The notes under the pieces are model-generated. The model was not told where the DNA came from, did not search any database, and saw only the letters and a list, made by a program, of their open reading frames with translations. Shown here one piece after another: positions 28,644 through 49,930 of a stretch of DNA of 64,000 nucleotides. Where the stretch lies: assembly GCA_030427865.1 (NCBI GenBank), contig JAUICK010000010.1, positions 1 to 64,000 of the forward strand, read 5' to 3'. Source of the stretch: Bacteroidia bacterium (GTDB lineage: Bacteria; Bacteroidota; Bacteroidia; Flavobacteriales; Flavobacteriaceae). The first letter of the stretch is position 1, and each line of letters opens with the position of its first letter. The position numbers and the translations under genes are program-made.

Positions 28644-28647
28644 AAGA

Positions 28648-31483: not shown

Positions 31484-31526
31484 TTGTTTAACAAATAATT
31501 AAATAAATTAAACATTTGTATCTTTA
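31484..31526 (+). promoter_or_regulatory. Regulated promoter of photolyase operon 1
   Basis: TTGTTTAAC at 31484, TTAAACA at 31508 and TATCTTTA at 31519 (a -7-like element, TAnnTTTA). TGTTTAA and TTAAACA are inverted copies. The same three elements occur at identical offsets (0, 24, 35) in front of operon 2 at 39995. The 24-base spacing of the inverted arms suits a dimeric regulator. Confidence 0.7.
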
Positions 31527-31544
31527 CTTAAAATTAATATAATT

Positions 31545-32201
31545 ATGGCTCGCAAAAAAAACATCACCAAAGACAACATTATTTCTTGGTATATGGAATT
31601 TGTTTTAGAGAACAATCATCAACCAAAATCTGTTTTCAGTTTTGCAAAAAAAAATAACTTTGAAGAATCTGATTTTTATAAATTCTATGGGTCTTTTGAA
31701 GCAGTAGAGGAATCTATTTTTTCAGAATTCTTTCATCATACAATAACAGTTTTGCACAAAAGCGATGATTATCAAAACTATGATGCTAAAAATAAATTAC
31801 TAAGTTTTTATTTTACTTTTTTCGAAATCTTAACAGCCAACAGAAGTTATGTTGTTTATGTTTTAGAAGGTGTAAAAAAAGACCTAAAAAAACTGAAATC
31901 ATTAAAGTCTTTAAAAACAGAATACACAAAATTTGTTGAAGATTTAAACATTGAAAGAATTGAGTTGAAACAAGAAACTTTAGAAAAAATTCAGAACACT
32001 TCTATCAAAGAATCTTCTTGGATGCACTTAGTAATCACAATAAAATTTTGGTTAGATGATGTTTCTCCATCCTTTGAAAAAACAGATATTTTTATTGAAA
32101 AATCAATCAACGCTCGTTTTGATTTAATGGATATTAAGCCTTTAAAAAGTATTATTGATTTTGGGAAATTCATTTTAAAAGAAAAAGTAAATTTTAACTA
32201 A
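31545..32201 (+). CDS. TetR-like transcriptional regulator
   Basis: A 218-residue protein. The N-terminal 55 residues fit a TetR helix-turn-helix (KNITKDNIISWYMEFVLEN, PKSVFSFAKKNNFEESDFYKFYGSFEAVE); the remainder is helical, fitting the ligand-binding half. It is the first gene of the photolyase/cryptochrome island and the only DNA-binding regulator in it, hence the best candidate for the protein acting at the inverted repeats before both operons. The ligand is unknown; no cobalamin or other light-sensing domain was recognised. Ten bases before the ABC1 kinase gene. Confidence 0.8.
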   Translation: MARKKNITKDNIISWYMEFVLENNHQPKSVFSFAKKNNFEESDFYKFYGSFEAVEESIFSEFFHHTITVLHKSDDYQNYDAKNKLLSFYFTFFEILTANRSYVVYVLEGVKKDLKKLKSLKSLKTEYTKFVEDLNIERIELKQETLEKIQNTSIKESSWMHLVITIKFWLDDVSPSFEKTDIFIEKSINARFDLMDIKPLKSIIDFGKFILKEKVNFN

Positions 32202-32211
32202 GACAGAAGCT

Positions 32212-33516
32212 ATGAAAACTATAGATTCCATTCCAACTTCCAAAATGCAACGTGCATCTAAATTAGTAACCACTGGTGCTAAAATTGGTGTAAATTATTT
32301 AAAATATTATGGTGATAAAATTACCAAAACAGAAGTTGAAGCAAAAGCACGTTTAAATGAAAACAATGCTGAGGATATTTATGATGGTTTGAAAAAATTA
32401 AAAGGTAGCGCTTTAAAAGTTGCCCAAATGTTGAGTATGGAAAAAAGCATTTTACCTCAAGCTTATGTAGAAAAATTTTCGCTTTCTCAGTTTTCTGTCC
32501 CACCACTTTCTCCAGCTTTAGTTACCAAAACTTTTAAAAAGTATTTTGGCAAAAATCCTAATGAAATTTATGACAAATTTGAGGCTATCTCTGTAAATGC
32601 AGCAAGTATTGGTCAAGTTCATAAAGCAGAAAAAGACAAAAAGAAATTAGCTGTTAAAATTCAATATCCAGGTGTAGCAGAAAGCATAGCTTCAGATTTA
32701 GCCTTGGTAAAACCCATTGCTATTAAAATGTTTAATATTAGAGGAAAAGATTCTGATAAATATTTTAAAGAAGTTGAAAACAAGTTGGTTGAGGAAACTA
32801 ATTATATATTAGAAGTTGAACAAAGTCAAGCTATTGTAGAAGCGTGTAAACACATACCTAATTTAAACTTTCCAAATTATTACCCTGAATTATCTTCAGA
32901 TAGAATTATTACGATGGATTGGATGAATGGCGTGCATTTATCAGAATTTAAATTCAAAGACCAAGAAACTGCCAATAAACTGGGACAAGCTTTGTGGGAT
33001 TTTTACATGTTTCAAATTCATAAATTACAAAAAGTACACGCAGACCCTCATCCTGGAAATTTTTTAATTTCTCCAGAGAACGACTTAATTGTGATAGATT
33101 TTGGCTGTATGAAAACAATTCCCAATGATTTTTATGTTCCATATTTTGAATTGGCAAAAAAAGAAAACCTTAGCAACCCAACTTATTTTGAAGAAAAACT
33201 ATTTGAATTAGAAATTTTAAGAAAAGATGATTCTAAAGAAGAGTTGGTGTTTTTTAGAGCAATGTTTCATGAAATGTTAAGTCTTTTTACACAACCTTTT
33301 CACAAAGAAATATTTGATTTTTCTGATGAAGTATTCTTCGGAAAATTATCAGAACTTGGAGCTAAATATGCAAAAAGCACAGAACTTAAAAACATGAATG
33401 GAAATAGAGGTTCCAAGCATTTTATTTACATCAATAGAACGTTTTTTGGCTTATATAATTTAATGCACGATTTAAAAGCAAAAGACATTAAAATAAATAA
33501 CTTTAAAACATACTAA
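32212..33516 (+). CDS. ABC1/UbiB (AarF) family atypical kinase
   Basis: A 434-residue protein of the ABC1/ADCK family. Signature segments: ALKVAQMLS (the family motif KxGQ with Ala for Gly), AASIGQVHKA (nucleotide loop), AVKIQYPG (Lys of the ATP site), EETNY, HADPHPGNF and IDFG. UbiB-like proteins support quinone or isoprenoid metabolism and lipid handling with weak ATPase/kinase activity; the target is unknown here. No TM helix was noticed. Cotranscribed with the TetR-like gene. Confidence 0.88.
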   Translation: MKTIDSIPTSKMQRASKLVTTGAKIGVNYLKYYGDKITKTEVEAKARLNENNAEDIYDGLKKLKGSALKVAQMLSMEKSILPQAYVEKFSLSQFSVPPLSPALVTKTFKKYFGKNPNEIYDKFEAISVNAASIGQVHKAEKDKKKLAVKIQYPGVAESIASDLALVKPIAIKMFNIRGKDSDKYFKEVENKLVEETNYILEVEQSQAIVEACKHIPNLNFPNYYPELSSDRIITMDWMNGVHLSEFKFKDQETANKLGQALWDFYMFQIHKLQKVHADPHPGNFLISPENDLIVIDFGCMKTIPNDFYVPYFELAKKENLSNPTYFEEKLFELEILRKDDSKEELVFFRAMFHEMLSLFTQPFHKEIFDFSDEVFFGKLSELGAKYAKSTELKNMNGNRGSKHFIYINRTFFGLYNLMHDLKAKDIKINNFKTY

Positions 33517-34148
33517 TGACTTTTTTTAGTTCAGAAGATATCAATAATTTAAATAAAATTTACAGAATTAACCTTATAAACAGTTGCTCTGGATTTAAAT
33601 CTGCGAATTTATTAGCTTCTATTTCAAAAGAAGGAATCACTAACGTTGCTGTTTTTAGTTCTGTAACACATTTAGGATCTAATCCACCAACTTTAGGTTT
33701 TATACTAAGACCAACAACAGTTCCAAGAAATACGTATAAAAACTTAAAAGAAACTGGGTACTTTACCATCAATCATATTTATGAAGATATTATAGAGGAT
33801 GCGCATCATACATCTGCAAAATACTTAGAAGAAATATCTGAATTTGATGTAACCAATTTAGAAGAAGAGTACAAAGGTAATTTTAAGGTACCCTTTGTAA
33901 AAAACGCTCCTGTACAAATGAATATGAAATTTATCGAAGAAATTTATGTGCCTTCTAATAATGTACAACTAATTGTAGCTCAAATTCAAGAATTATACAT
34001 TAAAGATGAATTGCTTGAAAAAGACGGACTCATTAATTTATCTAAAGGAAACATTGCTGCAATAAATGGTTTAGATACTTATACAATACCTAAATTTAAA
34101 GAAAGGTTTTCATATCAAAGACCAAAAAACTTATCTAAATCTGTATGA
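33516..34148 (+). CDS. Flavin reductase-like FMN-binding protein
   Basis: A 210-residue protein of the flavin-reductase-like split-barrel family (SISKEGITNVAVFSSVTHLGSNPPTLGFI, YKNLKETGYFTINHI, HTSAKY). Such proteins bind FMN and use NAD(P)H. In a cluster of flavin-dependent photolyases a role in flavin supply or in reduction is plausible but inferred. Starts one base into the preceding stop (TAATG) and overlaps the following gene by 4 bases (ATGA). Confidence 0.85.
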   Translation: MTFFSSEDINNLNKIYRINLINSCSGFKSANLLASISKEGITNVAVFSSVTHLGSNPPTLGFILRPTTVPRNTYKNLKETGYFTINHIYEDIIEDAHHTSAKYLEEISEFDVTNLEEEYKGNFKVPFVKNAPVQMNMKFIEEIYVPSNNVQLIVAQIQELYIKDELLEKDGLINLSKGNIAAINGLDTYTIPKFKERFSYQRPKNLSKSV

Positions 34149-35566
34149 AAATTCTTGTTACAGGTGCAACAGGTTATATTGGTAAACGTTTAATTCCGTT
34201 ATTACTAAATGATGGTCATACCGTTATTTGCCCTGTTAGAGATAAAAAAAGAGCAGAAAATTATTACAAAAATCAAAAAAAAATCTCACTTATAGAGGCT
34301 GATTTTTTAAATTTAGATTCATTAAGTAAGATTCCAAAAGACATAGATATCGCGTATTATTTAATTCATTCTATGTCTAATTCTGCTAAAGAATTTCATC
34401 TACTTGAAGAAAAATGTGCTTTTAATTTTAAACGTTTTGCAGAAGCAACAACCATTAAACAAGTAATTTATTTAAGCGGAATTACTAACGACACAAAACT
34501 TTCTAAGCACTTACTTTCAAGAAAAAATGTAGAGTTAACTCTTGCCTCAGGTAAATACGCTATAACCACCTTTAAAGCAGGTATTATTGTAGGTTCTGGA
34601 AGTTCTTCTTTTGAAATTATAAGAGATTTGGTAGAAAAACTTCCAGCAATGATTGCTCCTAAATGGTTAAATACCAAAACACAACCTTTAGCCATAAGAG
34701 ATGTATTGGCTTTCTTATATAAATCTCTTAACAAAAAAGAGCTATTTAATACCTCTAATGACATTTTCGGGCCAGAAATTCTGACCTACAAAGAAATGTT
34801 ATTACAATTCGCTGAAGTAAGAAAGCTAAAAAGATGGATTTTTACTGTTCCTGTAATGACACCTAAGCTATCATCTTATTGGCTCTATTTTGTAACCTCA
34901 ACATCTTATAAATTGGCAAGTTCTTTGGTAAATTCTATGGGCGTAGAAGTAATTGGAAAACAAAGCAATATCAATACTATTTTAAATGTAAACCCAATGA
35001 CTTACAAAGAATCAGTTAAGTTGGCATTTAAAAAAATTGAACAAAATAGCATTATATCAAGTTGGAAAGATTCATACATCAGTAGTGGAAAATTAAAAAA
35101 TTATGTTCACGAATTTATAAATGTTCCAGAGTACGGATGTTTTAAAGATTTAAAAAAAAGAGAACTAAAAAACAGAGAAAAAACTTTAACTAAAATTTGG
35201 GCAATTGGCGGAGAAACGGGTTGGTACTATGGTACTTTTTTATGGAAAATTAGAGGTTTTTTAGATCAATTTTTTGGTGGAGCCGGTTTGCGTAGAGGAA
35301 GAAGGCATCCAACCGAATTAAACGCTGGAGATGCTTTAGACTTTTGGCGCGTAATTTATGCAGACAAGAAAAAAGGAAAATTACTGTTGTATGCAGAAAT
35401 GATTTTACCTGGAGAAGCGTGGTTAGAGTTTAAGATTGAAGAAAATAAAATTCATCAAACCGCAACATTTAGACCTCATGGCCTTGCAGGTAGGCTATAC
35501 TGGTATACAGTTATGCCATTTCATTGGTTTGTTTTTAATGGAATGATTAATAACATTAACAAATAA
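34145..35566 (+). CDS. NAD(P)-binding SDR-type oxidoreductase with DUF2867 domain
   Basis: A 473-residue two-domain protein. N-terminal extended Rossmann domain (residues 1-290) starting with VTGATGYIGKRLIP; C-terminal DUF2867 domain (about 320-470), recognised by WAIGGETGWYYGT, LRRGRRHPTELNAGDALDFWRV and PGEAWLEFKI. The substrate is not known; such proteins resemble complex I subunit NDUFA9-like SDRs. The DUF2256 miniprotein follows in the same frame after a single TAA. Confidence 0.88.
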   Translation: MKILVTGATGYIGKRLIPLLLNDGHTVICPVRDKKRAENYYKNQKKISLIEADFLNLDSLSKIPKDIDIAYYLIHSMSNSAKEFHLLEEKCAFNFKRFAEATTIKQVIYLSGITNDTKLSKHLLSRKNVELTLASGKYAITTFKAGIIVGSGSSSFEIIRDLVEKLPAMIAPKWLNTKTQPLAIRDVLAFLYKSLNKKELFNTSNDIFGPEILTYKEMLLQFAEVRKLKRWIFTVPVMTPKLSSYWLYFVTSTSYKLASSLVNSMGVEVIGKQSNINTILNVNPMTYKESVKLAFKKIEQNSIISSWKDSYISSGKLKNYVHEFINVPEYGCFKDLKKRELKNREKTLTKIWAIGGETGWYYGTFLWKIRGFLDQFFGGAGLRRGRRHPTELNAGDALDFWRVIYADKKKGKLLLYAEMILPGEAWLEFKIEENKIHQTATFRPHGLAGRLYWYTVMPFHWFVFNGMINNINK

Positions 35567-35569
35567 TTT

Positions 35570-35710
35570 TTGAAAAAGGAACATCTTCCATCTAAGATTT
35601 GTAAGGTTTGTGAAAGACCTTTTAGTTGGCGAAAAAAGTGGCAGAAAAATTGGGAAAACGTAAAATATTGTAGCAAAAAATGCAGCAAGTTCAAGAAAAA
35701 ACAGCTCTAA
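35570..35710 (+). CDS. DUF2256 zinc-finger miniprotein, TTG start
   Basis: A 46-residue protein missed by ATG-based calling. The pattern [19 protein letters not shown] followed by [17 protein letters not shown] is DUF2256, with Cys pairs CxxC and CxxxC that probably hold one zinc. It lies in the same frame as the DUF2867 gene, separated by its TAA and one Phe codon, and no ATG is available before the domain, so TTG at 35570 is the only reasonable start; stop readthrough giving a fusion is the alternative. Its last 31 bases overlap the CRY-DASH gene. DUF2256 genes often accompany photolyase genes (recollection). Confidence 0.82.
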
Positions 35711-36990
35711 TTTGGTTTCGCAACAACTTAAGAGTAAATGATAATATTTCTTTATACAAATCTACTCAAGATTATAAAAAAGTAATTGCAGTTTATTTTT
35801 TTGACCCAAAACTGTTTCAGAAAGATACATTTGGTTTTCGTAAAACAGAAAAATATAGAGCTCAATTTTTAATTGAAACAATAAAAGATTTGTCGCAAAA
35901 TTTAGCCAATTTAAACATTACTTTGTTTACTTATTATGATAGTCCAGAAAATCAGATTCCTAAAATTTGTGAAGTTTTTTCAGTAGAAACCATATACAGT
36001 CAAAAAGAATGGACCTTAGAAGAAATTAACACCAATAAACTTATAAAAAACAAGCTCTCAAAGAATATCAATTTTATTGAAGATTATGATCAGTTTTTGT
36101 TTCATCCAAATCAAGTAACCAAAAATTTTAATAACATTCCTGATGTATTTACAACATTTAGGAAAAAGGTAGAAAAACAGATTAATGTTTTACCAGAGTT
36201 AAGAATTTTAGCTTTAGACAAAAATAATTTACTTAAAAACCCAACTACACTCCCTACTTTACATGAGTTAGGCTTTAATGAGTTCAATACAAAAACTGCT
36301 TCTGCTTTTCCTTTTTCTGGCGGAGAAAATGCTGCCTTAAAAAGATTGAAATACTATTTTTTCGAATCTAAGAAAGTAGTTTTTTATAAAAAAACAAGAA
36401 ATGGTTTAATAGGCGCAAATTACAGTACAAAATTTTCTCCTTGGTTAGCAAACGGAAGCATTTCTGCAAAAACCATTTATTGGAATATAAAAGAATTTGA
36501 AGAAAAACATGGTTCAAATCAATCTACTTATTGGGTTGTTTTCGAACTGATTTGGAGAGATTATTTCAAATACATTTCTTTAAAATACGATAATAAAATT
36601 TTTAAAATTGGTGGAATTTTAGACAAAGATTATCATTGGAATTCCGATAAGAAAATCATACAGAATTGGATTAATGGAAAAACAAAAGACAATTTTGTAA
36701 ATGCCAACATGATAGAGTTAAAAGAAACAGGCTGGATGAGCAATAGAGGTAGACAAAATGTTGCTTCTTATTTTGCCAAAGAACTATTACAAGATTGGAG
36801 AATTGGAGCAGCTTATTTTGAATCTTTATTAATTGATTATGATGTACATAGCAATTATGGCAATTGGATGTATGTTGCCGGAGTTGGAAATGACCCAAGA
36901 GATAGAAAATTTAATACTAAATTACAAGCAGAGCGCTATGATAGCAACTATAAATTTAGAGAATTATGGCTACAAAAAACACTGTTTTAA
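35680..36990 (+). CDS. DASH family cryptochrome (CRY-DASH)
   Basis: A 436-residue FAD- and pterin-binding protein repairing CPDs in single-stranded DNA or acting as a blue-light sensor. N-terminal photolyase alpha/beta domain ([13 protein letters not shown]), then the DASH-specific [10 protein letters not shown] segment and the FAD domain ([58 protein letters not shown], and [22 protein letters not shown]). The last is typical of DASH proteins. No C-terminal extension. Overlaps the DUF2256 gene; the next gene begins directly after its stop. Confidence 0.93.
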
Positions 36991-38475
36991 ATGGCAAAAA
37001 AAGAAATACATATCATTTTTCCGCATCAACTTTTTAAAGAATCTGAAGTTTTAAATAAAGTTAATGATATTATTTTAGTTGAAGAATTTCTGTTTTTTAA
37101 TCAATACAAATTTCATAAGCAAAAAATTGCTTTTCATAGAGCAAGCATGAAATTTTACGAAAATTACCTTCAAAAAAAAGGCAAAAAAGTAAGATATATA
37201 GAGGCTAAAAACGAGTTAAATGATGTTAGAAAACTCCTTCCACAATTAGCAAAAAAAGGAATTTCTAAAATACATATCATAAATCCAACAGACAATTGGT
37301 TAGAGAAACATATCCATCAATATAAAAACAACATTGAAATAGTTTGGTATGAAAATCCTCTTTTTATAAATACAAAAGAAGATTTATCATCATTTTTTAC
37401 ATTCTCAAAAAAGAAATTCTTTCAAACCTCTTTTTACAAAAGCGAAAGAAAAAATAGAGCTATTTTAATGGATGGGAAAAATCCTGTTGGGGGCAAATGG
37501 ACCTTTGATGATGAAAACAGAAAAAAATATCCGAAAGGAAAAACACCTCCTCCACTTCATTTTCCAGAGAAAACATCATATCATATAAAAGCAGAAGCAT
37601 ATGTAAATCATCATTTTGCCAACAATTATGGAAGTTTAAATGACTTTATCATTTATCCTATCAATTTTGAATCTGCAGAAAGCTGGTTAACTCAATTCTT
37701 TGAAGTTCGTTTTCACGAATTTGGTATTTATGAAGATGCTATTGTTAAAGAAGAACACTTTTTAAATCACAGTTTATTATCACCATTAATAAATGTGGGT
37801 TTATTACATCCTTTAGAAATTATTGAAAAGGCTATTGAATTTGCTCATCAAAATGATATCCCTATAAATTCTACAGAAGGTTTTGTGCGTCAAATTTTAG
37901 GTTGGCGAGAATTTATTAGAGGTGTTTACGAGGCAAAAGGAACAGAAGAACGCACTAAAAATTTCTGGAAATTCTCAAGAAAAATTCCGAAATCTTTTTA
38001 CAATGGCACAACTGGAATTCAACCTATTGATGATGTTATCAAAAAAGTTAACAAAACCGCTTATGCACATCATATAGAACGTTTGATGATTTTAGGAAAC
38101 TTTATGATGCTTTGTGAATTTAATCCAGATGAAGTTTACAAATGGTTTATGGAGCTTTTTATTGATGCTTACGATTGGATTATGGTACCCAATGTATATG
38201 GAATGAGTTTGTTTGCTGATGGCGGATTAATGAGCACAAAACCATACATAAGCAGTAGCAATTACCTTATGAAAATGAGCAATTACAAAAAAGGCGATTG
38301 GCAAGAAACTTGGGATGGATTATTTTGGACGTTTATGGATAAACACAGAAATTTCTTTTTGAGCAACCCAAGATTAGGAATGTTAATCAGGGCTTTTGAT
38401 AAAATGAATCAAGATAAAAAAGAGGTTCATTTTAAAAATGCCAAACTATTTTTTAACCAATTAGATAATGACTGA
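36991..38475 (+). CDS. Photolyase-related protein (DPRP, (6-4)/FeS-type family) without Fe-S ligands
   Basis: A 494-residue member of the prokaryotic (6-4) photolyase/CryB family: the DPRP N-terminal domain IHIIFPHQLF, RASMKFYENYL, and the FAD domain with QILGWREFIRG, HHIERLMILGNFMML, IDAYDWIMVPNVYGMSLFADGGLMSTKPYISS. Known members such as Agrobacterium PhrB bind a [4Fe-4S] cluster by four Cys, including a CxxC after the SxxSxYI segment. Here that loop is KMSNYKKGDWQETWDG, and the whole protein holds a single Cys (LCEFNPDE), so it cannot hold such a cluster. Repair of (6-4) photoproducts is inferred. Confidence 0.92.
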   Translation: MAKKEIHIIFPHQLFKESEVLNKVNDIILVEEFLFFNQYKFHKQKIAFHRASMKFYENYLQKKGKKVRYIEAKNELNDVRKLLPQLAKKGISKIHIINPTDNWLEKHIHQYKNNIEIVWYENPLFINTKEDLSSFFTFSKKKFFQTSFYKSERKNRAILMDGKNPVGGKWTFDDENRKKYPKGKTPPPLHFPEKTSYHIKAEAYVNHHFANNYGSLNDFIIYPINFESAESWLTQFFEVRFHEFGIYEDAIVKEEHFLNHSLLSPLINVGLLHPLEIIEKAIEFAHQNDIPINSTEGFVRQILGWREFIRGVYEAKGTEERTKNFWKFSRKIPKSFYNGTTGIQPIDDVIKKVNKTAYAHHIERLMILGNFMMLCEFNPDEVYKWFMELFIDAYDWIMVPNVYGMSLFADGGLMSTKPYISSSNYLMKMSNYKKGDWQETWDGLFWTFMDKHRNFFLSNPRLGMLIRAFDKMNQDKKEVHFKNAKLFFNQLDND

Positions 38476-39955
38476 CAGAGAAGAAATAAATGTTGTTTGG
38501 TTTAAAAGAGACCTTCGTTTGCAAGATAATGAGGCTATTTTTAATGCAATTAATTCCAATAAAAAAACACTTTTTTTATATGTTTTTGAAAATTCTCTGA
38601 TTCATGATCCTCATTATGATAAACGTCACTGGAATTTTATTAAACAGTCTATTACCGATATTAATTCTAATTTAAAACAATACAATACAAAAGTTCTTAG
38701 CGTTCAAACAGAGGTAGTTACAGCTTTTAATCAGTTGCAAAATTATTTTAAAATTCACACTGTTTTTTCACACCAAGAAACTGGTTTATTAATTACTTAT
38801 AATAGAGACAAAGATTTTGCAAGATATTGTAGAAATAACACAATTAATTGGATTGAAAACAATAACAACGGTGTTTTAAGAGGGCTACTTAACAGAGAAG
38901 ACTGGTTCGAAAAATGGGATGAATATATGTATTCCCCTCAAATTGAAGTAAATTATTCAAGCGCTAATTTTATCAGTTTAGATCAAATAAAAAATTTAGA
39001 AAAGAGTTTTATCATTCCTGATTTAAAAACTGAAGAATCCAAAAAATTTCAACCAGGAGGCACTAAAATGGCTTGGAAATATGCACTTTCATTTTTTGAA
39101 AAAAGACATAAAGAATATATGTTTCATATATCTAAACCCGCTCTTGCAAGAGAAAGCAGTAGTCGATTATCACCATACATTGCTTGGGGAAATGTTTCTA
39201 TCCGTCAGATTTTTCAAAAAGCATTAGCCTACAAAAACGATAGTAATAAAAGACATTTGGGTGCTTTTGTATCGCGTTTACGTTGGCAAGCTCACTTTAT
39301 ACAAAAGTTTGAAATGGAACATACCATGGAAAATGAAAGCGTAAATAAAGGCTACCATAAGCTTAAAAAAAGTATTTCTTTGCAGTACCAAAAAGCCTGG
39401 AAAGAAGGAAAAACAGGTTTTCCACTCGTTGATGCAAGTATGCGTTGTTTAATTGAAACAGGTTACTTAAACTTTAGAATGCGATCGCTTTTAGTTTCTT
39501 TTTTTACACATATTTTGTGGCAACCTTGGCAAGCATCTTCTCAATATTTATCAAAACTATTCTTAGATTTTGAACCTGGAATTCATTTTCCGCAATTACA
39601 AATGCAAGCAGGAGAAACTGGTATAAATAATTTAAGAATCTATAACCCAATTAAAAATAGTTTAGAGCACGATGCAGATGCTACCTTTATCAAAAAATGG
39701 GTTCCAGAGCTAAGTCATCTTCCTCTTCCTTTCATTCACGAACCCTATTTAATGACTCCTCTTGAACAACAGTTTAATAACTTTACTTTAGGAGAAGATT
39801 ACCCTTACCCAATTGTAGAATTAAAATTTGCAAGAAAAAAAGCAAGTGACATTCTTTGGAACTTAAAAAAGAATTCAAAAGTTCGTACTGAAAACATTAG
39901 AATACTAAATAAACATACAATTTCTGATAGAAAAAGAATGCTTAGAAACGACTAA
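38468..39955 (+). CDS. Atypical cryptochrome/photolyase family protein
   Basis: A 495-residue third superfamily member. N-terminal alpha/beta domain (VVWFKRDLRLQDNEAIF) and FAD-binding domain (SSSRLSPYIAWGNVSIRQIF, FVSRLRWQAHFIQKF, TGFPLVDASMRCLIETGYLNFRMRS). In place of the usual Asn-x-x-x-Trp-Gln-Trp loop near the flavin it has DFEPGIHFPQLQMQAGETG and then INNLRIYNP. This pattern belongs to a separate, little studied group (recollection); the repair activity is uncertain. Overlaps the preceding gene by 8 bases. It ends operon 1. Confidence 0.88.
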   Translation: MTDREEINVVWFKRDLRLQDNEAIFNAINSNKKTLFLYVFENSLIHDPHYDKRHWNFIKQSITDINSNLKQYNTKVLSVQTEVVTAFNQLQNYFKIHTVFSHQETGLLITYNRDKDFARYCRNNTINWIENNNNGVLRGLLNREDWFEKWDEYMYSPQIEVNYSSANFISLDQIKNLEKSFIIPDLKTEESKKFQPGGTKMAWKYALSFFEKRHKEYMFHISKPALARESSSRLSPYIAWGNVSIRQIFQKALAYKNDSNKRHLGAFVSRLRWQAHFIQKFEMEHTMENESVNKGYHKLKKSISLQYQKAWKEGKTGFPLVDASMRCLIETGYLNFRMRSLLVSFFTHILWQPWQASSQYLSKLFLDFEPGIHFPQLQMQAGETGINNLRIYNPIKNSLEHDADATFIKKWVPELSHLPLPFIHEPYLMTPLEQQFNNFTLGEDYPYPIVELKFARKKASDILWNLKKNSKVRTENIRILNKHTISDRKRMLRND

Positions 39956-39994
39956 CTGTCAAATTTTTAGGAAATTATAATTTTATGTTAATTT

Positions 39995-40037
39995 TTGTTT
40001 AACAATATTTATAATTAGTTAAACATTATTATCTTTG
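39995..40037 (+). promoter_or_regulatory. Regulated promoter of photolyase operon 2
   Basis: TTGTTTAAC at 39995, TTAAACA at 40019 and TATCTTTG at 40030 (full TAnnTTTG). Same order and offsets (0, 24, 35) as at 31484. The start of the next gene is 9 bases after the -7 element, leaving a very short leader. Confidence 0.75.
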
Positions 40038-40045
40038 GATAGGAA

Positions 40046-40480
40046 ATGATTTACAATACTACACATAAAAACAAAGAGGCAGAATCTATTTTTAATGATT
40101 TATTAGGAAAAAGATTTTCTTTTTTACAATCTATAAAAATGGGTGGTTCAGGTTCTAAAAGAATGATAATAGAAGAAGTTGGCATAGGCTTCCAAAAGTA
40201 TATGAATACAATATCTGACATTAATTATGGTAATATTGAGCTAAGAAAACAGGGCATTATAGTTCACATAAACAAAGGGCTAAAAACCTTTAGTTGGGCA
40301 ATTCCTTTTTATCAATTGCACACCTACAAGACAAATGGTTTTAGTATTCACGCTCATGGAAATTTCGTGAGATTTAAAAACAATAAATTGTTAAAAGAAA
40401 ACAGAAAATTTATTAACAAAATAATTAATTTAAAAATAGAAAACGATAAACGTTATAATTTCTATCCAACTATCAATTAA
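40046..40480 (+). CDS. Conserved hypothetical protein, first gene of photolyase operon 2
   Basis: A 144-residue soluble basic protein with no recognised family. The middle segment (GIIVHINKGLKTFSWAIPFYQLHTYKTNGFSIHAHGNFVRFKNN) looks like a beta-rich PH-type module. No signal peptide or membrane helix. Its position directly behind the regulated promoter and before DUF2805, folE and a photolyase suggests a role in the same response. Confidence 0.7.
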   Translation: MIYNTTHKNKEAESIFNDLLGKRFSFLQSIKMGGSGSKRMIIEEVGIGFQKYMNTISDINYGNIELRKQGIIVHINKGLKTFSWAIPFYQLHTYKTNGFSIHAHGNFVRFKNNKLLKENRKFINKIINLKIENDKRYNFYPTIN

Positions 40481-40491
40481 TTCTATTTAAA

Positions 40492-40764
40492 ATGACTTTA
40501 GACGGAATAAGAATTGATAGAATTATAGAGATGGCTTGGGAAGACAGAACCACATTTGAAGCTATTGAATTTCAATTTGGTTTAAAAGAACAAGAAGTCA
40601 TCAATTTGATGAGAAAAGAAATCAAACCTTCAAGTTTCAAAATGTGGAGAAAAAGAGTACAAGGTAGAAAAACAAAACATCAAAAATTAAGAATTTTCGA
40701 AAAAGGAAGATTTAAATGTTCAAGACAAAAAACAATATCTAATAACTCTATTGCAAAAAGATAA
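40492..40764 (+). CDS. DUF2805 (TIGR03643) family protein
   Basis: A 90-residue basic protein. The family pattern is clear: IIEMAWEDRTTFEAIEFQFGL, then VINLMRKEIKPSSFKMWRKRVQGRKTKH. A helix-turn-helix-like shape makes DNA binding possible, and members commonly lie near cryptochrome/photolyase genes (recollection). The last 15 residues are variable. 11 bases after the preceding gene. Confidence 0.85.
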   Translation: MTLDGIRIDRIIEMAWEDRTTFEAIEFQFGLKEQEVINLMRKEIKPSSFKMWRKRVQGRKTKHQKLRIFEKGRFKCSRQKTISNNSIAKR

Positions 40765-40770
40765 CTAACC

Positions 40771-40809
40771 GTGCTTTGCTTTTAAGATTAGAGTACTTAA
40801 AGACAGCAC
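40771..40809 (+). promoter_or_regulatory. Hairpin in the spacer before folE
   Basis: GTGCT (40771-40775) pairs with AGCAC (40805-40809), and CTTTTAAG (40779-40786) with CTTAAAG (40796-40802). No T-run follows, so it is not a terminator. It could be an mRNA-processing site or a translational control element for folE. Confidence 0.45.
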
Positions 40810-40825
40810 ATTAAAAAGAAACCAA

Positions 40826-41524
40826 ATGATTACAGAAGTAATATTAAAAGAAAAAGAAGTATCTGAAAAACTAAATGGTTTTTCTTTTGATGAAGTTGGT
40901 GATGACCACTTATTTACTGGATTACAAACACCAATGAAACAAGATGCTTTTAAACTCTCTGACCAAGAAAAAAAAGACAAAATAGCCAGTTTATTCTCAG
41001 AAATAATGGATGTGATGGGCTTAGATTTAACAGACGATTCTTTGCAAGGAACCCCAAAAAGAGTAGCCAAAATGTACATTGATGAAATATTTTCTGGCTT
41101 AAATCCTGCCAACAAACCAAAAGTAGCATTGTTTGATAATAAATATCAATACAACCAAATGTTGGTAGAAAAGAATATTACTTTTTATTCAAATTGCGAA
41201 CATCATTTTGTACCAATTATTGGTAAAGCTCATGTTGCTTACATCTCTTCTGGTAAAGTAATTGGGTTATCAAAATTAAACAGAATTGTACAATATTATG
41301 CTAAAAGACCTCAGGTTCAAGAACGATTAACCAATCAAATTGCTGAGGAATTGAAAGCCATTTTAGACACAGAAGATGTTGCTGTTATTATAGACGCAAA
41401 ACATCTATGCGTATCATCAAGAGGAATTAAAGATGATACTTCATCCACTGTAACATCTTACTTTGGTGGTAAATTCAACAATCAAGAAAAAATAGTAGAA
41501 TTACAAAACACTTTAAATTATTAA
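40826..41524 (+). CDS. folE: GTP cyclohydrolase I
   Basis: A 232-residue enzyme making 7,8-dihydroneopterin triphosphate from GTP, the first step to folates. Zinc and active-site residues are in NCEHHFVPIIGKAHVAYIS (Cys, His) and HLCVSSRGIKDD (second zinc Cys); SKLNRIVQYYAKRPQVQERLT is the family core. Folate supplies the methenyl-tetrahydrofolate antenna used by photolyases, which explains its presence in this operon. Whether it is the only folE of the genome cannot be told. A zinc-binding FolE1 type by its ligands. Confidence 0.96.
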   Translation: MITEVILKEKEVSEKLNGFSFDEVGDDHLFTGLQTPMKQDAFKLSDQEKKDKIASLFSEIMDVMGLDLTDDSLQGTPKRVAKMYIDEIFSGLNPANKPKVALFDNKYQYNQMLVEKNITFYSNCEHHFVPIIGKAHVAYISSGKVIGLSKLNRIVQYYAKRPQVQERLTNQIAEELKAILDTEDVAVIIDAKHLCVSSRGIKDDTSSTVTSYFGGKFNNQEKIVELQNTLNY

Positions 41525-41527
41525 ATT

Positions 41528-41755
41528 ATGGATTTAATTGATAAAGCATTAGAGTTCGAAACAAGAAAAATGAGGTTTCCAACTACAAGCGATCGCATTT
41601 TAGCTTCAAGAGAAGCCAAGTCTTTAATTTTAAGTTTGAATGAAATTTACAAACAAAATAAAGATCAAAAAATAATGGACATCATGAAACGTTTAACCGC
41701 AATTAAACAAAGAATAGAAAAACGTTTAAAAGGAAAACCGTTAACTGCGGCGTAA
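41528..41755 (+). CDS. Small hypothetical helical protein, first of tandem pair
   Basis: A 75-residue helical, basic protein (pattern FETRKMRFPTTSDRILASREA, IMDIMKRLTAIKQRIEKRLKG). It shares most residues with the 71-residue protein encoded 72 bases downstream, a recent tandem duplication. No family name was recognised. Three bases after folE; role unknown. Confidence 0.75.
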   Translation: MDLIDKALEFETRKMRFPTTSDRILASREAKSLILSLNEIYKQNKDQKIMDIMKRLTAIKQRIEKRLKGKPLTAA

Positions 41756-41827
41756 TAAATTCAGTTTTTTCTTGCTTTTCTAACTTTTATATTTATATTC
41801 GAAAATTAGAAAATCAGAATTATAAAA

Positions 41828-42043
41828 ATGAATTTATTAGAAAGAGCTGTAGAGTTTGAAAATAGAAAATTTTCATTTAAAACCACAAGCGATAGAATTT
41901 TAGCTTCGAGAGAAGTAAAAGCTTTAATTTTAGAACTTAACGAAGTTTACAAATTAGAAAAAGATCCAGAAATAATGGATCAAATGAAGCGCTTAACTGC
42001 TGTTAAACAAAAAATTGAAAAGCGCTTAAAAGGAAGACCTTAA
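41828..42043 (+). CDS. Small hypothetical helical protein, second of tandem pair
   Basis: A 71-residue paralogue of the preceding gene (FENRKFSFKTTSDRILASREV, IMDQMKRLTAVKQKIEKRLKGRP). TTSDRILASRE and MKRLTA are identical in both. 7 bases before the SDR gene. Its upstream spacer contains TATATTCG, a weak promoter match. Confidence 0.75.
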   Translation: MNLLERAVEFENRKFSFKTTSDRILASREVKALILELNEVYKLEKDPEIMDQMKRLTAVKQKIEKRLKGRP

Positions 42044-42050
42044 AGCACTT

Positions 42051-42734
42051 ATGAAAAAAATATTAGTAATTGGAGGAAGCAAAGGAATTGGAAATGCAAT
42101 TATCAATTCTTTAGTTAATAACAACAAAGTAATAAACATTAGCAGAACTGCACCTCTGCTTTCCAATTCTAATCTTACACACCATCAGTGTGATATTCTT
42201 GTTGATGATTTCCCTGAAATAGAAGCAATAGACACTTTAATCTATTGTCCAGGTAGCATCAATCTCAAACCAATTTCAAGACTAAAATTAGACGATTTTA
42301 GAAACGATTTTGAAATCAATGTAATAGGAGCTGTAAAAGCTATACAACATTATTTACCATCTTTAAAAAAAGGTACAAACCCATCAATTTTACTATTTAG
42401 TACTGTTGCTGCAAAACTAGGAATGCCTTTTCATGCAAGTGTAGCTGCAGCAAAATCTGCAGTAGAAGGCTTAACAAAATCTTTAGGTGCAGAATTTGCA
42501 CCAACCATTCGTGTAAACGCAATTGCGCCAACGGTAACTAATACAGATTTGGCTTCAAAACTACTACGTAATGAACGTTTAATTGAAGCAATTAAAGAAC
42601 GTCATCCTTTAAAAAAGTTTCTAAAACCTAATGAAGTTGCTGATTTGGCTACTTTTTTAATTTCTGATAAATCAAGTTCAATTTCTGGTCAAATTTTCGA
42701 ATTAGACTGCGGAATTGTAAGTTTTAAAATATAA
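42051..42734 (+). CDS. SDR family protein without the catalytic tyrosine
   Basis: A 227-residue short-chain dehydrogenase/reductase fold. Cofactor motif GGSKGIGNAI at residues 8-17, Ser in LLFSTVAA; the usual YxxxK is VAAAK (FHASVAAAKSAVEGLTKSLG), so Tyr is Val and only Lys remains. Some bacterial SDRs share this; it may be non-catalytic or use another residue. Its place in the light-response-like operon resembles SDR genes near photolyases elsewhere (recollection). Substrate unknown. Confidence 0.85.
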   Translation: MKKILVIGGSKGIGNAIINSLVNNNKVINISRTAPLLSNSNLTHHQCDILVDDFPEIEAIDTLIYCPGSINLKPISRLKLDDFRNDFEINVIGAVKAIQHYLPSLKKGTNPSILLFSTVAAKLGMPFHASVAAAKSAVEGLTKSLGAEFAPTIRVNAIAPTVTNTDLASKLLRNERLIEAIKERHPLKKFLKPNEVADLATFLISDKSSSISGQIFELDCGIVSFKI

Positions 42735-42739
42735 TTTCT

Positions 42740-43216
42740 ATGACAAATATCTATGATATCGAGATAAAAAGTCTCCAAAATACTCCTATACAATTATCTG
42801 ATTTTAAAGGAAAACATATTTTGTTTGTAAATGTGGCTTCAAAATGTGGATTTACACCTCAATACAAAGATTTAGAAAAGTTACATCAGATGTATAAAAA
42901 TCAATTAGTAATTATTGGAGTTCCTTGTAATCAATTTGGGAAACAAGAACCAGGTAATTCATCAGAAATAGAAGAATTCTGTCAAGTTAATTATGGAGTA
43001 TCTTTTTTGATAACAGAAAAGATTGATGTAAAAGGCGTAAATCAACATCCATTATACAGTTGGTTAACGCAAAGAAAACTCAACAATAAAAAGAGTTCAT
43101 CCGTAAAATGGAATTTTCAAAAATATTTAGTTTCTCCAGAGGGGAAATTAATTGATTATTATTTTTCAATTACAAAACCATTGAGTTCAAAAATTACAAA
43201 ACACATAAAATTATAA
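42740..43216 (+). CDS. Glutathione peroxidase family protein (Cys type)
   Basis: A 158-residue thiol peroxidase. Peroxidatic Cys36 in NVASKCGFTPQYK, Gln in IIGVPCNQFGKQEPG, and Trp-Asn in VKWNFQKYL make up the catalytic tetrad; Cys replaces selenocysteine. In bacteria such enzymes usually use thioredoxin. Likely role: removal of peroxides formed under light. 5 bases after the SDR gene. Confidence 0.92.
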   Translation: MTNIYDIEIKSLQNTPIQLSDFKGKHILFVNVASKCGFTPQYKDLEKLHQMYKNQLVIIGVPCNQFGKQEPGNSSEIEEFCQVNYGVSFLITEKIDVKGVNQHPLYSWLTQRKLNNKKSSSVKWNFQKYLVSPEGKLIDYYFSITKPLSSKITKHIKL

Positions 43217-43220
43217 AATT

Positions 43221-43409
43221 ATGTTTGGATTATTTAAGAAAAAATCAGATTTAGAAAAACATCAAGATTTATATAAAAAATTGATGGAAGAAGCATACAA
43301 ATTACAATCTATTAATAGAAAAGAGAGTGATCAAAAATATTTAGAAGCTGATCTTATCTTAAGGAAAATAGAATCTCTAAAAAATGATAATTTAAATGAA
43401 GCAGTTTAA
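43221..43409 (+). CDS. Small Lacal_2735-type protein
   Basis: A 62-residue helical protein, MFGLFKKKSDLEK at its start followed by KLMEEAYKLQSINRKESDQKYLEAD, a pattern I know as the Lacal_2735 family of Flavobacteriia. Function unknown. The ATG follows the GPx stop by 4 bases; it overlaps the TspO gene by 14 bases. Confidence 0.75.
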   Translation: MFGLFKKKSDLEKHQDLYKKLMEEAYKLQSINRKESDQKYLEADLILRKIESLKNDNLNEAV

Positions 43410-43860
43410 ATTTACGATACTTTTTCTAATCATTAATTTTGGTGGTTTAGCTATTGGAAGCTGGTTGATGAATAATGGTCCACAATCTGAATGGTACACA
43501 AACTTAAACCAAGCTCCTTGGACACCTCAAGGTTGGGTATTTGGAGTTGCTTGGACAACAATTATGATTTGTTTTTCTATTTATTTAGGGAAACAATTTT
43601 TAGATAATGAACATATAAAAAACTTAAGTTTCATCTTTATTTTAGAATTCATTTTAAATGTAAGTTGGAACTTTATTTTCTTTAATCAACACCAAGTTTT
43701 AATTGGATTGATAACAATTATATTACTAACATCCCTCATATTTCATTATTTCTTTAACTTGAGTAAAAAAGTTGGAAATTATAAATATTTATTATTGCCT
43801 TATATGATTTGGTTGTGTATTGCAACTTCTTTAAATCTCTATATATTAGTTCATAATTAA
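43396..43860 (+). CDS. TspO/MBR family membrane protein
   Basis: A 154-residue protein with five membrane helices. Typical TspO features: NQAPWTPQGWVFGVAWTTIM (the Pro/Trp-rich loop and helix), and a Trp-Asn core in LNVSWNFIFFN. TspO binds tetrapyrroles and helps in porphyrin and light/oxidative stress responses in bacteria. Overlaps the preceding gene; the SRPBCC gene follows after one base. Confidence 0.92.
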   Translation: MKQFKFTILFLIINFGGLAIGSWLMNNGPQSEWYTNLNQAPWTPQGWVFGVAWTTIMICFSIYLGKQFLDNEHIKNLSFIFILEFILNVSWNFIFFNQHQVLIGLITIILLTSLIFHYFFNLSKKVGNYKYLLLPYMIWLCIATSLNLYILVHN

Positions 43861-43861
43861 G

Positions 43862-44326
43862 ATGAAAATTTACACTTTACATAAAAAACAAAACTTACCA
43901 ATTTCTGTTGAACAAGCTTGGGAGTTTTTATCAAGTCCAAAAAACTTGAAAACAATTACACCAGATTACATGAGTTTTGATATTCTCTCTGGAGCAGACA
44001 GACCAATGTACCCAGGGCAAATCATTCAATACATTGTTACTCCTGTTTTAGGAATAAAAACAAAATGGGTAACAGAAATTACACACGTTAAAGACAAAGA
44101 ATATTTTGTTGATGAACAACGTTTTGGACCTTATGCATTATGGCATCACAAACATTTTATCAAAGAAATAGATGGTGGTGTAGAAATGGAAGATATTATA
44201 GACTACAAGGTTCCTATGGGAATTTTAGGGCAAATGGTACATCCAATTTTAGTGAGACCAAAATTAGAAGAAATTTTTGCTTACAGACAAAAAAAATTGA
44301 TTGAACTTTTTGGAGAATACAAATAA
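43862..44326 (+). CDS. SRPBCC family ligand-binding protein
   Basis: A 154-residue START/Bet v1-like protein with a helix-grip fold (LPISVEQAWEFLSSPKNLKTITPDYMSFDI, YPGQIIQYIVTPVLGIKTKWVTEI, GVEMEDIIDYKVPMG). It probably binds a hydrophobic small molecule. A protein of this kind often stands next to bacterial photolyase genes (recollection). One base separates it from the class I photolyase gene. Confidence 0.85.
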   Translation: MKIYTLHKKQNLPISVEQAWEFLSSPKNLKTITPDYMSFDILSGADRPMYPGQIIQYIVTPVLGIKTKWVTEITHVKDKEYFVDEQRFGPYALWHHKHFIKEIDGGVEMEDIIDYKVPMGILGQMVHPILVRPKLEEIFAYRQKKLIELFGEYK

Positions 44327-44327
44327 G

Positions 44328-45629
44328 ATGGCAGAAAAAATCACAATTTTTTGGTTTCGAAGAGACTTGCGTTTAGAAGATAATTGCGCATTATTTCATG
44401 CTCTAAATTCTAGTAACAAAGTGTTGCCCATTTTTATTTTTGACAATGATATTTTAAACAAACTCCCCAAAAACGATGCACGAGTTTCATTTATCCATCA
44501 AGAATTAAGCAATATCAATTATCAATTGAAAGAAATAGGCAGTTCTTTGGCTGTATTTCAAGGAAAACCTCTTGAGGTTTACAGAAAGTTATCTCTAAAA
44601 TACACCATTAAAACTGTATTCACTAATCATGATTATGAGCCTTACGCCAACAAAAGAGACACAGAAATTAAAGAATTTTTAGCATCAAAAAATATTGAGT
44701 TTAAAACTTACAAAGATCAAGTTATTTTTGAAAGAAACGAGATTGTGAAACAAGACGGAACGCCTTACAAAGTTTATACTCCTTATTCTCGAAAATGGCT
44801 GGAAGCGTTTCGTTTTAAAGGTATTCAATTTTATCCATCAGAAGAATTTTTTGATAATTTTATTAAAAATAAAAACCATCAATTCTTATCTTTAAAAGAT
44901 ATTAATTTTATAAAATCGCCTATAGAAATTGCATCTTACAAGATTTCTCCAAAACTCATTAACGAATATGAAGAAACACGGAATTACCCTGCAAAAAATG
45001 CCACTTCAAAATTAGGCACACATTTGCGTTTTGGAACTGTTAGTATTCGTAAAATAGTTGATAAAGCATCAAAAAGTAACAACATTACTTTTTTAAAAGA
45101 ATTAATTTGGCGAGAATTTTTTATGCAAATTTTATGGCATTTCCCACATACACCAAAAGATAGTTTTAAATCAAAATACGATAGAATTGTTTGGAGAAAC
45201 AACGAAGAAGAATTTAAAGCTTGGTGTAATGGAAAAACTGGCTATCCTTTAGTAGACGCTGGCATGAGAGAACTAAATAATACTGGCTTTATGCACAATA
45301 GAGTTAGAATGTTAGTAGGCAGTTTTTTATGCAAACATTTATTGATAGATTGGAGATGGGGAGAAGCTTATTTTGCGGAAAAATTACACGATTACGAAAT
45401 GGCAAGTAATGTAGGGAACTGGCAATGGGTTGCTGGTTCTGGGGTTGATGCTTCACCTTATTTTAGAATTTTTAACCCTACAACACAAATAAAAAAGTTT
45501 GATAAAGATTTAAAATACATAAAAAAATGGGTTCCAGAGTTTCAAGAATTTACTTATCCCAAAGAAATTGTAGCACATAAATTTGCCAGAGATCGATGTT
45601 TAAAAGTATACAAAGAAGCGGTTTCATAA
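44328..45629 (+). CDS. phrB: Deoxyribodipyrimidine photolyase, class I
   Basis: A 433-residue CPD photolyase. N-terminal antenna domain FWFRRDLRLEDNCALF; FAD domain with LGTHLRFGTVSIR, ELIWREFFMQI, TGYPLVDAGMRELNNTGFMHNRVRMLVGSFL and NVGNWQWVAGSGVDASPYFRIFNP, that is, the full canonical set including the Asn next to flavin N5. An ATG at 44301 lies inside the preceding gene and would add 9 residues; MAEKITIFW at 44328 is preferred. Last gene of operon 2. Confidence 0.95.
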   Translation: MAEKITIFWFRRDLRLEDNCALFHALNSSNKVLPIFIFDNDILNKLPKNDARVSFIHQELSNINYQLKEIGSSLAVFQGKPLEVYRKLSLKYTIKTVFTNHDYEPYANKRDTEIKEFLASKNIEFKTYKDQVIFERNEIVKQDGTPYKVYTPYSRKWLEAFRFKGIQFYPSEEFFDNFIKNKNHQFLSLKDINFIKSPIEIASYKISPKLINEYEETRNYPAKNATSKLGTHLRFGTVSIRKIVDKASKSNNITFLKELIWREFFMQILWHFPHTPKDSFKSKYDRIVWRNNEEEFKAWCNGKTGYPLVDAGMRELNNTGFMHNRVRMLVGSFLCKHLLIDWRWGEAYFAEKLHDYEMASNVGNWQWVAGSGVDASPYFRIFNPTTQIKKFDKDLKYIKKWVPEFQEFTYPKEIVAHKFARDRCLKVYKEAVS

Positions 45630-47909: not shown

Positions 47910-48230
47910 TTGAAGACTTTTAATAAACTTAAAAACAATAAAATAGTTAAAATTCTAACAAATATTTTTGTTATAATTTTAGTTCCATACATTATTTGGA
48001 TGTTTTTTTTTGATGAAAATTCTTATCTTGTTCACAGAAAATTTGACAGAGAAATAAACGACTTAGAAAATACGATTTCTTTTTATGAAAAGAAAATTGC
48101 CGAAGATAAGGCAACCATTAAAAAACTAAAAGACTCTCTTCAATTAGAACGTTTTGCAAGAGAAAAATATTTGATGAAGAAAGAAAATGAAGATATTTAT
48201 ATTATTGAATTTGACACAATAAAAAAATAA
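47910..48230 (+). CDS. FtsB/DivIC-type septum formation initiator, TTG start
   Basis: A 106-residue bitopic membrane protein of the cell-division complex. One helix (about 20-34, NIFVIILVPYIIWMFFF), then a coiled coil (NDLENTISFYEKKIAEDKATIKKLKDSL) and ERFAREKYLMKKENEDIYIIEF, a typical DivIC/FtsB end. The start codon is TTG, one base after the udk stop; no ATG fits before the membrane helix. The stop overlaps the mutA start by one base. Confidence 0.88.
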   Translation: MKTFNKLKNNKIVKILTNIFVIILVPYIIWMFFFDENSYLVHRKFDREINDLENTISFYEKKIAEDKATIKKLKDSLQLERFAREKYLMKKENEDIYIIEFDTIKK

Positions 48231-49594: not shown

Positions 49595-49597
49595 TCG

Positions 49598-49930
49598 ATG
49601 AATAAAAGTAAAGAAATTTTAAACTATCAAAAAAAACAAAACGCTTTAAAAAGCGAAGTAAAAAAAATCAAAAAAAAACTTCCAACTTACATTATTGGTT
49701 TTGTTTTTTTTGTTGTAGTAAGTCTTTATTTTCTTGAAGATAAATTTTATGCTTTTTTTGGAAATAATGTAAACTATATTATAGGGTTAGTTATTCTCTT
49801 ATCTCTTTTCTCTTTATTCTTTTTATTAAGAAGCTACATAAAAATTAAAAACAAACAAAAAGAATCTAAAGCTATTGGATCTAAATTATATAAACTTATG
49901 AAATTAGATTCAAACACTAATAATGAGTAG
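49598..49930 (+). CDS. Small membrane protein between mutA and mutB
   Basis: A 110-residue hypothetical protein: basic amphipathic N-terminus (about 1-30, coiled-coil-like), two membrane helices (about 31-48 and 58-78) and a basic helical tail. No family recognised. The ATG is 3 bases after mutA; its stop overlaps the mutB start by 8 bases, so it is translationally coupled to mutB. A role with the mutase is only inferred from position. Confidence 0.7.

Follow-up and report, generated by a model that had tools for sequence, protein, structure and literature searches.

The window analysed here is a stretch of 64,000 nucleotides (positions 1 to 64,000 of contig JAUICK010000010.1, assembly GCA_030427865.1, from a Bacteroidia bacterium of the Flavobacteriaceae). 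It contains a photolyase/cryptochrome island made of two tandem (head-to-tail) operons on the + strand, 90 bp apart, whose products include four members of the photolyase/cryptochrome superfamily as recognized by profile and structure-sequence searches. A preliminary description of this DNA had called the operons back-to-back: two operons are indeed present, but they are not divergent. All the genes that it named lie at or very near the positions it assigned to them, and the tight packing it noticed is confirmed by the gene coordinates, 15 of the 17 neighbour junctions being overlapping or shorter than 12 bases (the exceptions are DUF2805-folE, 61 bases, and the junction between the twin small proteins, 72 bases). 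Both operon promoters share a 30-bp inverted repeat, TGTTTAAY-N14-RTTAAACA (31485-31514 and 39996-40025), each copy of which is followed by a -7-like box that we take to be the -7 box of Bacteroidota. The analysis of this repeat, hereafter the operator, leads us to propose, with a probability of roughly three in four, that the island is controlled by a MerR-B12 repressor of CarH/LitR-like type whose gene accompanies carotenoid genes, and that the TetR-fold protein of the first operon is one of its targets. The features of the locus are distributed as follows.

31485..31514, no strand: operator 1, TGTTTAAC-N14-ATTAAACA, before the tetR operon; in relatives about 60 bp ahead of tetR
31519..31526, +: -7-like box TATCTTTA, immediately 3' of operator 1; consensus of 40 relatives TAtcTTTa
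31545..32201, +: TetR-fold protein (PF17931 TetR_C_23), probably under control of the operator and not its reader
32212..33516, +: ABC1/UbiB-like kinase, invariably accompanying tetR in the loci fetched
33516..34148, +: flavin reductase-like protein (PF01613)
34145..35566, +: NAD(P)-binding and DUF2867 protein (profile match)
35570..35710, +: DUF2256 protein of 46 amino acids, TTG start (PF10013, E 2e-20)
35680..36990, +: CRY-DASH (TIGR02765)
36991..38475, +: DPRP-type photolyase-related protein, lacking the cysteines CxxC...C of the Fe-S site
38468..39955, +: atypical third photolyase/cryptochrome; nearest solved structure, plant cryptochrome 1
39986..39991, -: third half-site TGTTAA, 10 bp ahead of operator 2
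39996..40025, no strand: operator 2, TGTTTAAC-N14-GTTAAACA, before the second operon; conserved in relatives
40030..40037, +: -7-like box TATCTTTG, 3' of operator 2
40046..40480, +: hp144, a 144-amino-acid protein for which no Pfam family was found; leads the second operon
40492..40764, +: DUF2805/TIGR03643 protein (profile match)
40826..41524, +: folE, GTP cyclohydrolase I (profile match)
41528..42043, +: twin small proteins of 75 and 71 amino acids (open reading frames)
42051..42734, +: short-chain dehydrogenase/reductase, SDR (profile match)
42740..43216, +: glutathione peroxidase-like protein (profile match)
43221..43409, +: DUF6435 protein (profile match)
43396..43860, +: TspO/MBR protein (profile match)
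43862..44326, +: SRPBCC-like protein; Pfam Polyketide_cyc under its cut-off
44331..45629, +: phrB-type DNA photolyase; start 44331 preferred, alternative TTG at 44301
48230..51983, +: methylmalonyl-CoA mutase genes, one with a B12-binding domain; outside the regulon

The occurrence of the operator was examined in the window, in the whole genome and across the family. The argument is founded on counts over the whole genome and across genomes; pattern tests confined to the window were weak or mis-set. With the correct pattern, the 64 kb contain two perfect sites, and the total at no more than 3 mismatches (7) is not above chance (9.4); a 20-base pattern of the right half, again at no more than 3 mismatches, gives 6 matches for 2.57 expected, a value reached in 6 of 100 shuffles; a 31-base pattern with the wrong spacing gives 7 for 9.4 expected. 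In the complete genome TGTTTAA-N13..19-TTAAACA is present at 4 places, every one with a 16-base spacing, and the reversed control pattern has 2 matches per strand. The four sites correspond to the two island operons, a gene with two fasciclin domains (PF02469) and one gap between convergent genes. This last site (C63:103966) was rejected as an operator target because of its convergent flanks, and is taken as a probable chance match. The promoter of crtI carries a one-base-changed operator with the exact spacing, 9 bases ahead of the crtI start; this site was first read by eye, then confirmed with a pattern relaxed afterwards. A third half-site 10 bp upstream, as found at operator 2, accompanies 16 of 40 tetR operators and 7 of 15 hp144 operators (23/55). 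The promoter of the fasciclin gene (L039 1450-1530, contig C44) seems, by eye, to contain a second inverted repeat of this type, weaker and located farther upstream.

We then considered 397 genomes of the same family, which were scanned for the operator, the TetR protein and the CarH-like protein and cross-tabulated. The operator was found at 777 places, the reversed pattern at 22. Among the 292 genomes with a CarH orthologue, 271 have the operator, as do 14 of the 105 others (divergent CarH or none), shared ancestry being ignored in this comparison. The same division is seen on both sides of the TetR partition: 217/233 with an orthologue versus 8/28 without among TetR-positive genomes, and 54/59 versus 6/77 among TetR-negative ones. 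Within the orthologue group TetR has no effect on the presence of the operator (217/233 versus 54/59, p 0.78, shared ancestry again ignored), and the operator also lies between carH and crtI in the TetR-negative genomes G072, G130, G143 and G378. Across genomes the operator is tied to the CarH-like gene far more closely than to TetR. The cross-table was assembled by hand, and its totals of 261, 321 and 285 genomes agree with the scan tallies. The 29 genomes of the divergent CarH group were likewise assigned by hand, from E-values: G106 (a fragment, 52% identity) was counted as an orthologue and G295 (E 1e-17) as divergent but outside the residue count, to which G166 contributes two sequences.

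The genes downstream of the operator define the probable regulon. Distinct operators are distributed as follows: 40 before tetR, 15 before hp144, 14 before crtI and 10 before fasciclin genes. In a census of 84 operators, taken from the places listed in the family scan and from loci fetched for other purposes, downstream matches were tetR in 19 cases, fasciclin in 18, hp144 and crtI in 12 each, Porph_ging in 6, SRPBCC in 3, tspO and SDR in one each, plus one small protein that is doubtful, lying 305 bp off; the remaining operators have no assigned gene. A protein family with a Porph_ging-domain member (L189) is found 3' of an operator in six loci (L046, L189, L194, L195, L201, L204) and is a possible further conserved target. 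For crtI, the start codon is within a few bases of the operator in 13 of 14 sequences, and the consensus overlaps a TAtATTTG box. Among 37 named tetR loci, the exact site is just before tetR in 27, missing in 7, cut off in 1 and ambiguous in 2. Two Tenacibaculum loci (L245, L246) gather carH, the operator, crtI, tspO, tetR, abc1 and phrB in one stretch; L245 also has a fasciclin-like match, and neither locus has an exact site directly before tetR. Conservation of the island was clear in the neighbourhood comparison across Flavobacteriaceae: in all 39 tetR loci fetched, among them those of genomes without CarH, the first gene recognized 3' of tetR is abc1, and larger parts of both operons are kept in most, not all, of the loci from CarH-orthologue genomes (L112, L120, L129 and L133 keep little). 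The set of genes stays together in relatives. The coordinated light/UV response proposed in the preliminary description gains indirect support, the operator being common to both operons, crtI and fasciclin genes and the set being conserved; the comparison contradicts the TetR-like protein as the regulator of that response.

The candidate reader of the operator is a protein of 297 amino acids encoded at C6:146633-147523, directly before crtI and on another contig than the island. The neighbouring crtI was named from NF058655, with 367 bits over the half that is present, below the full-length cut-off. The candidate aligns to Thermus thermophilus CarH in both domains (3whp residues 12-61 in the DNA-binding part), and matches PF13411 with 58.5 bits for a cut-off of 21.6, as expected of a MerR-type winged helix; PF02607 also matches. 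CarH residues were compared in an alignment of 50 sequences: 21 of the 292 orthologues and 29 divergent sequences. The W, E and H of the Wx9EH motif are present in all 50; in the lower-ligand motif ExHxxG, which reads EIHELG in our genome, E and H are present in 50/50 and G in 47/50. The genome also encodes a cobalamin adenosyltransferase, and the methylmalonyl-CoA mutase with a B12-binding domain is a sign that the cell uses adenosylcobalamin. That no light sensor gene was recognized in the window is consistent with our own findings there, the CarH-like gene sitting elsewhere. In the complete genome no BLUF protein was found, LOV and other light sensors not having been searched for; microbial rhodopsin gave no match either, nor did it in any control genome, so that its absence is not shown. 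A gene for an extracytoplasmic function (ECF) sigma factor is divergent from carH (L042, C6, 1843-2337 +).

The link between the protein and its operator is refined by the genomes with only a divergent CarH, in which a recoded operator, TGTCTAAY-N14-RTTAGACA (C form, the original being the T form), is often found upstream of tetR. The exact recoded site is present in 12 of the 397 genomes, 11 of the 29 with a divergent CarH and 1 of the 368 others, while the control pattern occurs at 1 place. It precedes tetR in 4 genomes, and directly precedes the divergent carH gene in G184, G203, G222 and G379. Seventeen of the fetched tetR loci come from genomes without an orthologue: the exact recoded form is present in 4 (L096, L102, L103, L104), L097 has the recoded form with one extra base, 3 are hybrids (L100, L101, L105), 2 carry TGTTTAA-N16-TTAAACA (L095, L099), and in the remaining 7 (L094, L098, L106-L110) no operator is visible. 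The T form is found at 21 of the 22 tetR loci from orthologue genomes, a rate biased by the fact that these loci were partly picked from genomes with operator matches; the last, L112, has a hybrid.

The recognition helix of CarH reads HTIR-I-WEKRY in the 20 orthologues, out of 20, that cover it, and mostly HTLR-K-WE in divergent sequences; at the variable position the 29 divergent sequences have K in 21 cases, I in 5, M in 2 and V in 1. Using exact patterns, the genomes of the 21 K-type sequences have the C operator only in 10 cases, both operators in 1, the T operator only in 1 and neither in 9; those of the five I-type divergent sequences have the T operator in 2 cases and neither in 3. T and C operators both keep the core TnnACA, the change being confined to its two free bases. 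This core is reported for known CarH operators, according to the accessible parts of two publications (PMC8156234, PMC9304148). It is present in both halves of 79/79 classified operators, a count to be read knowing that the selection pattern itself contains the core; what stands independently of the selection is the presence of TnnACA in the conserved repeat as well as in the recoded form. On the TetR side, recognition-helix positions 42, 43, 46 and 47 show wide variation among proteins of the T-operator group and fail to distinguish this group from the rest; the helix of the L094 protein, whose genome lacks the T operator, is identical to that of L117 at all but 1 of 13 positions. As far as these alignments indicate, the operator letter changes together with the recognition helix of CarH and not with that of TetR.

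These results bear directly on the regulator first suggested for the island, a TetR-like protein instead of the MerR/CarH/LitR type. As a master regulator, it would bind the repeat, repress its own and the second operon, and sense a ligand derived from light or photo-oxidation. Such a role would account for a tetR gene leading an operon with a palindromic site ahead, and for the basic N-terminal stretch MAKKK of many members. The predicted model does have a TetR-type fold: it is all-helical (pLDDT 85) and most of the 50 PDB matches listed are titled TetR-family, the best with probability 1.00, TM 0.66 and E 1.9e-3, so that none of these 50 reaches E 0.001. However, the helix-turn-helix family TetR_N (PF00440) is not matched, TetR_C_23 and one unrelated match under its cut-off being the only ones at E up to 0.01; crtI is preceded by the operator in TetR-negative genomes, and 20 of the 28 TetR-positive genomes without a CarH orthologue have no operator; and the helix positions given above vary over a nearly fixed operator. 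TetR was rejected as the operator reader on the stratified counts and on the helix comparison, and we regard its mastery of the island as very improbable.

The TetR-fold protein, whose 90% identity to its homologues in Polaribacter septentrionalilitoris and P. aquimarinus marks the source of the window as Polaribacter-like, is probably a target of the regulon. Since tetR and abc1 are paired in all the loci fetched, even without CarH, the pair must have a role of its own; the protein may regulate at a second tier, work with the ABC1 kinase, or have lost specific DNA binding. The pair is found without most of the island nearby in L094, L098, L106 and L107, and from this persistence it may predate or outlive the light cluster.

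Several observations weigh against control by the CarH-like protein. The exact operator is missing in 21 of the 292 orthologue genomes and present in 14 of the 105 others, and the association tests do not take shared ancestry into account. Outside the orthologue group the operator is commoner with TetR (8/28 versus 6/77, p 0.0097), which also speaks for TetR as master; five of these eight TetR-positive genomes have no CarH match, and three of the five are less than 82% complete. The correspondence between helix and operator is imperfect: nine K-type sequences come from genomes with neither operator and one from a genome with only the T type, the twelfth genome with a recoded site (G135) has two CarH matches, and the hybrid (TGTTTAAC...ATTAGACA) ahead of tetR in L112 belongs to a genome with a CarH orthologue. 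Known CarH operators are tandem 11-bp repeats, whereas we find an inverted pair separated by N14 with an optional third half-site at 10 bp. As for the protein, PF02310 does not match it, and its best family, the NCBIfam CarH model NF052513, gives 69.5 bits for a cut-off of 400. The S...GG part of the B12 motif (x41 SxV/T x22-27 GG) is not kept: S and T are present at x41 in our protein but GR replaces GG, S is found in 8 of 21 orthologues and the second G is not conserved. We call the protein CarH-like, not CarH, because this GG is missing. Finally, Q replaces His132 of T. thermophilus CarH in 20 of 21 orthologues, our protein included.

These last two losses make a serious alternative of a CarH-like protein that reads the operator but senses the cobalamin level or the redox state, the bis-His photochemistry having been lost. 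His132 is the upper (second) cobalt ligand after light, and one study found the H132A protein of T. thermophilus to remain largely tetrameric once illuminated, although it cites an earlier report of disassembly (PMC10442372, accessible part). Against this stand the conservation in 50/50 sequences of Wx9EH, which caps the adenosyl group, the presence of carotenoid and photolyase operons among the targets, and the statement, in the accessible part of PMC9304148, that "many" CarH homologues have this His, hence not all. We consider a sensor of this kind unlikely. Less probable still would be another factor that binds the repeat and merely travels with the crt cluster, for example the product of the ECF-sigma locus. 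That gene does adjoin carH in our genome; yet the recoding accompanies the CarH helix, the recoded site lies directly ahead of divergent carH genes, and both operator versions keep the CarH core.

Under regulation by the CarH-like protein, a dark repressor released by light is, by analogy with CarH, the most likely mechanism. The operator, its places, its dependence on the CarH-like gene and its recoding together with the CarH helix are observed; binding, cofactor, repression and light dependence are inferred. In the dark the regulator, probably with adenosylcobalamin, would bind TGTTTAAY-N14-RTTAAACA through its inverted TnnACA half-sites. These overlap the presumed promoters of the tetR-abc1-photolyase operon, the second operon, the fasciclin gene and crtI, whose transcription would be blocked. 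Light would cleave the cofactor and the repressor would be released, turning on together photolyases, pterin synthesis, peroxidase, TspO and carotenoid genes. We lean towards a generalization to a family-wide sunlight regulon of Flavobacteriaceae, in which a B12-type photoreceptor without the second His, acting on an inverted TnnACA pair, would couple carotenoids to up to four photolyase-family proteins, fasciclins and the TetR-fold/ABC1 pair, and in which some lineages would have been recoded by paired changes, I to K in the helix and T to C in the operator.

Flavobacteriaceae are common in surface seawater, and this regulon would give the family a likely sensor of light, with its DNA signal and its targets, and would link UV repair to carotenoid synthesis. 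It also offers a natural recoding of protein and operator for testing MerR specificity, and raises the question of how release from DNA would take place in a CarH-like protein that lacks His132. Known systems, including one in Chryseobacterium lacus, a member of the Flavobacteriales, share parts of this picture. Like CarH and class I LitR of T. thermophilus, Myxococcus xanthus and Bacillus megaterium, our protein has a MerR winged helix and a B12-binding region, Wx9EH and ExHxxG, a gene beside crt genes and TnnACA half-sites over promoters; unlike them, it has Q for His132 and does not keep S...GG, and it probably controls two photolyase operons together with fasciclin genes and a TetR-fold gene. 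PplR/PmlR, class II LitR of Pseudomonas, is similar as a LitR-type repressor with light-inducible phrB, folE and cryB and a site of two TGT..ACA units near the promoter; it differs by its TGTACA-N12-TGTACA site, by a LOV partner and by being thought not to bind B12 (PMC9758184, accessible text), whereas the present regulator is of B12 type, with another spacing and with carotenoid genes included. In C. lacus the crt cluster is light-induced and the authors guessed that a gene of this cluster acts like CarA/LitR; the accessible text identifies no regulator or operator and does not contain the word photolyase (PMC7064467). MliR of Bizionia argentinensis, a MerR-type regulator in Flavobacteriaceae, was rejected as the same regulator: according to the accessible text it has no effector domain, and it acts in iron homeostasis (PMC9478572). 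The control of carotenoid genes by CarH/LitR is already known, as is that of phrB, folE and cryB by class II LitR in Pseudomonas (PMC9758184, accessible text). In the literature searched, mostly outside subscription journals and partly seen, we found neither a light regulon described for Flavobacteriaceae nor, for Bacteroidota as a whole, a regulon, operator or recoding of the present type.

The four photolyase-family proteins were categorized further. CRY-DASH is above its family cut-off (TIGR02765, 474 bits for 317). The second protein, described earlier as DPRP/(6-4)-type, does match FeS (6-4) photolyases, but CxxC...C, which holds three of the four cysteines of the [4Fe-4S] cluster in that type, is absent, so that a (6-4) activity is only a possibility. 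In an alignment of 17 DPRP sequences of at least 350 amino acids, these cysteines are kept in 13 and missing in 4 (ours, L100, L118 and L125), so that the DPRP slot is occupied by two different forms. In most relatives the slot holds an FeS-type protein about 29-36% identical, the cysteine-less form being found in our genome and few others (loci named for the two forms: L100, L118, L125, L211, L213, L224, L227, L234). The third form was rightly called atypical: it scores under the cut-off of every NCBIfam family listed, and among solved structures its sequence is closest to plant cryptochrome 1 (1u3c, 131 bits). The nearest solved structure to the product of the last gene, of phrB type, is 4u63, labelled "DNA photolyase".

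Two minor observations concern neighbouring genes. The twin proteins of the second operon are tandem duplicates without a Pfam family, present as one or two copies in many relatives. Upstream of the island, at 27453-30286, two adjacent proteins of the PF00144 beta-lactamase family are encoded, which are lipoprotein-like by eye.

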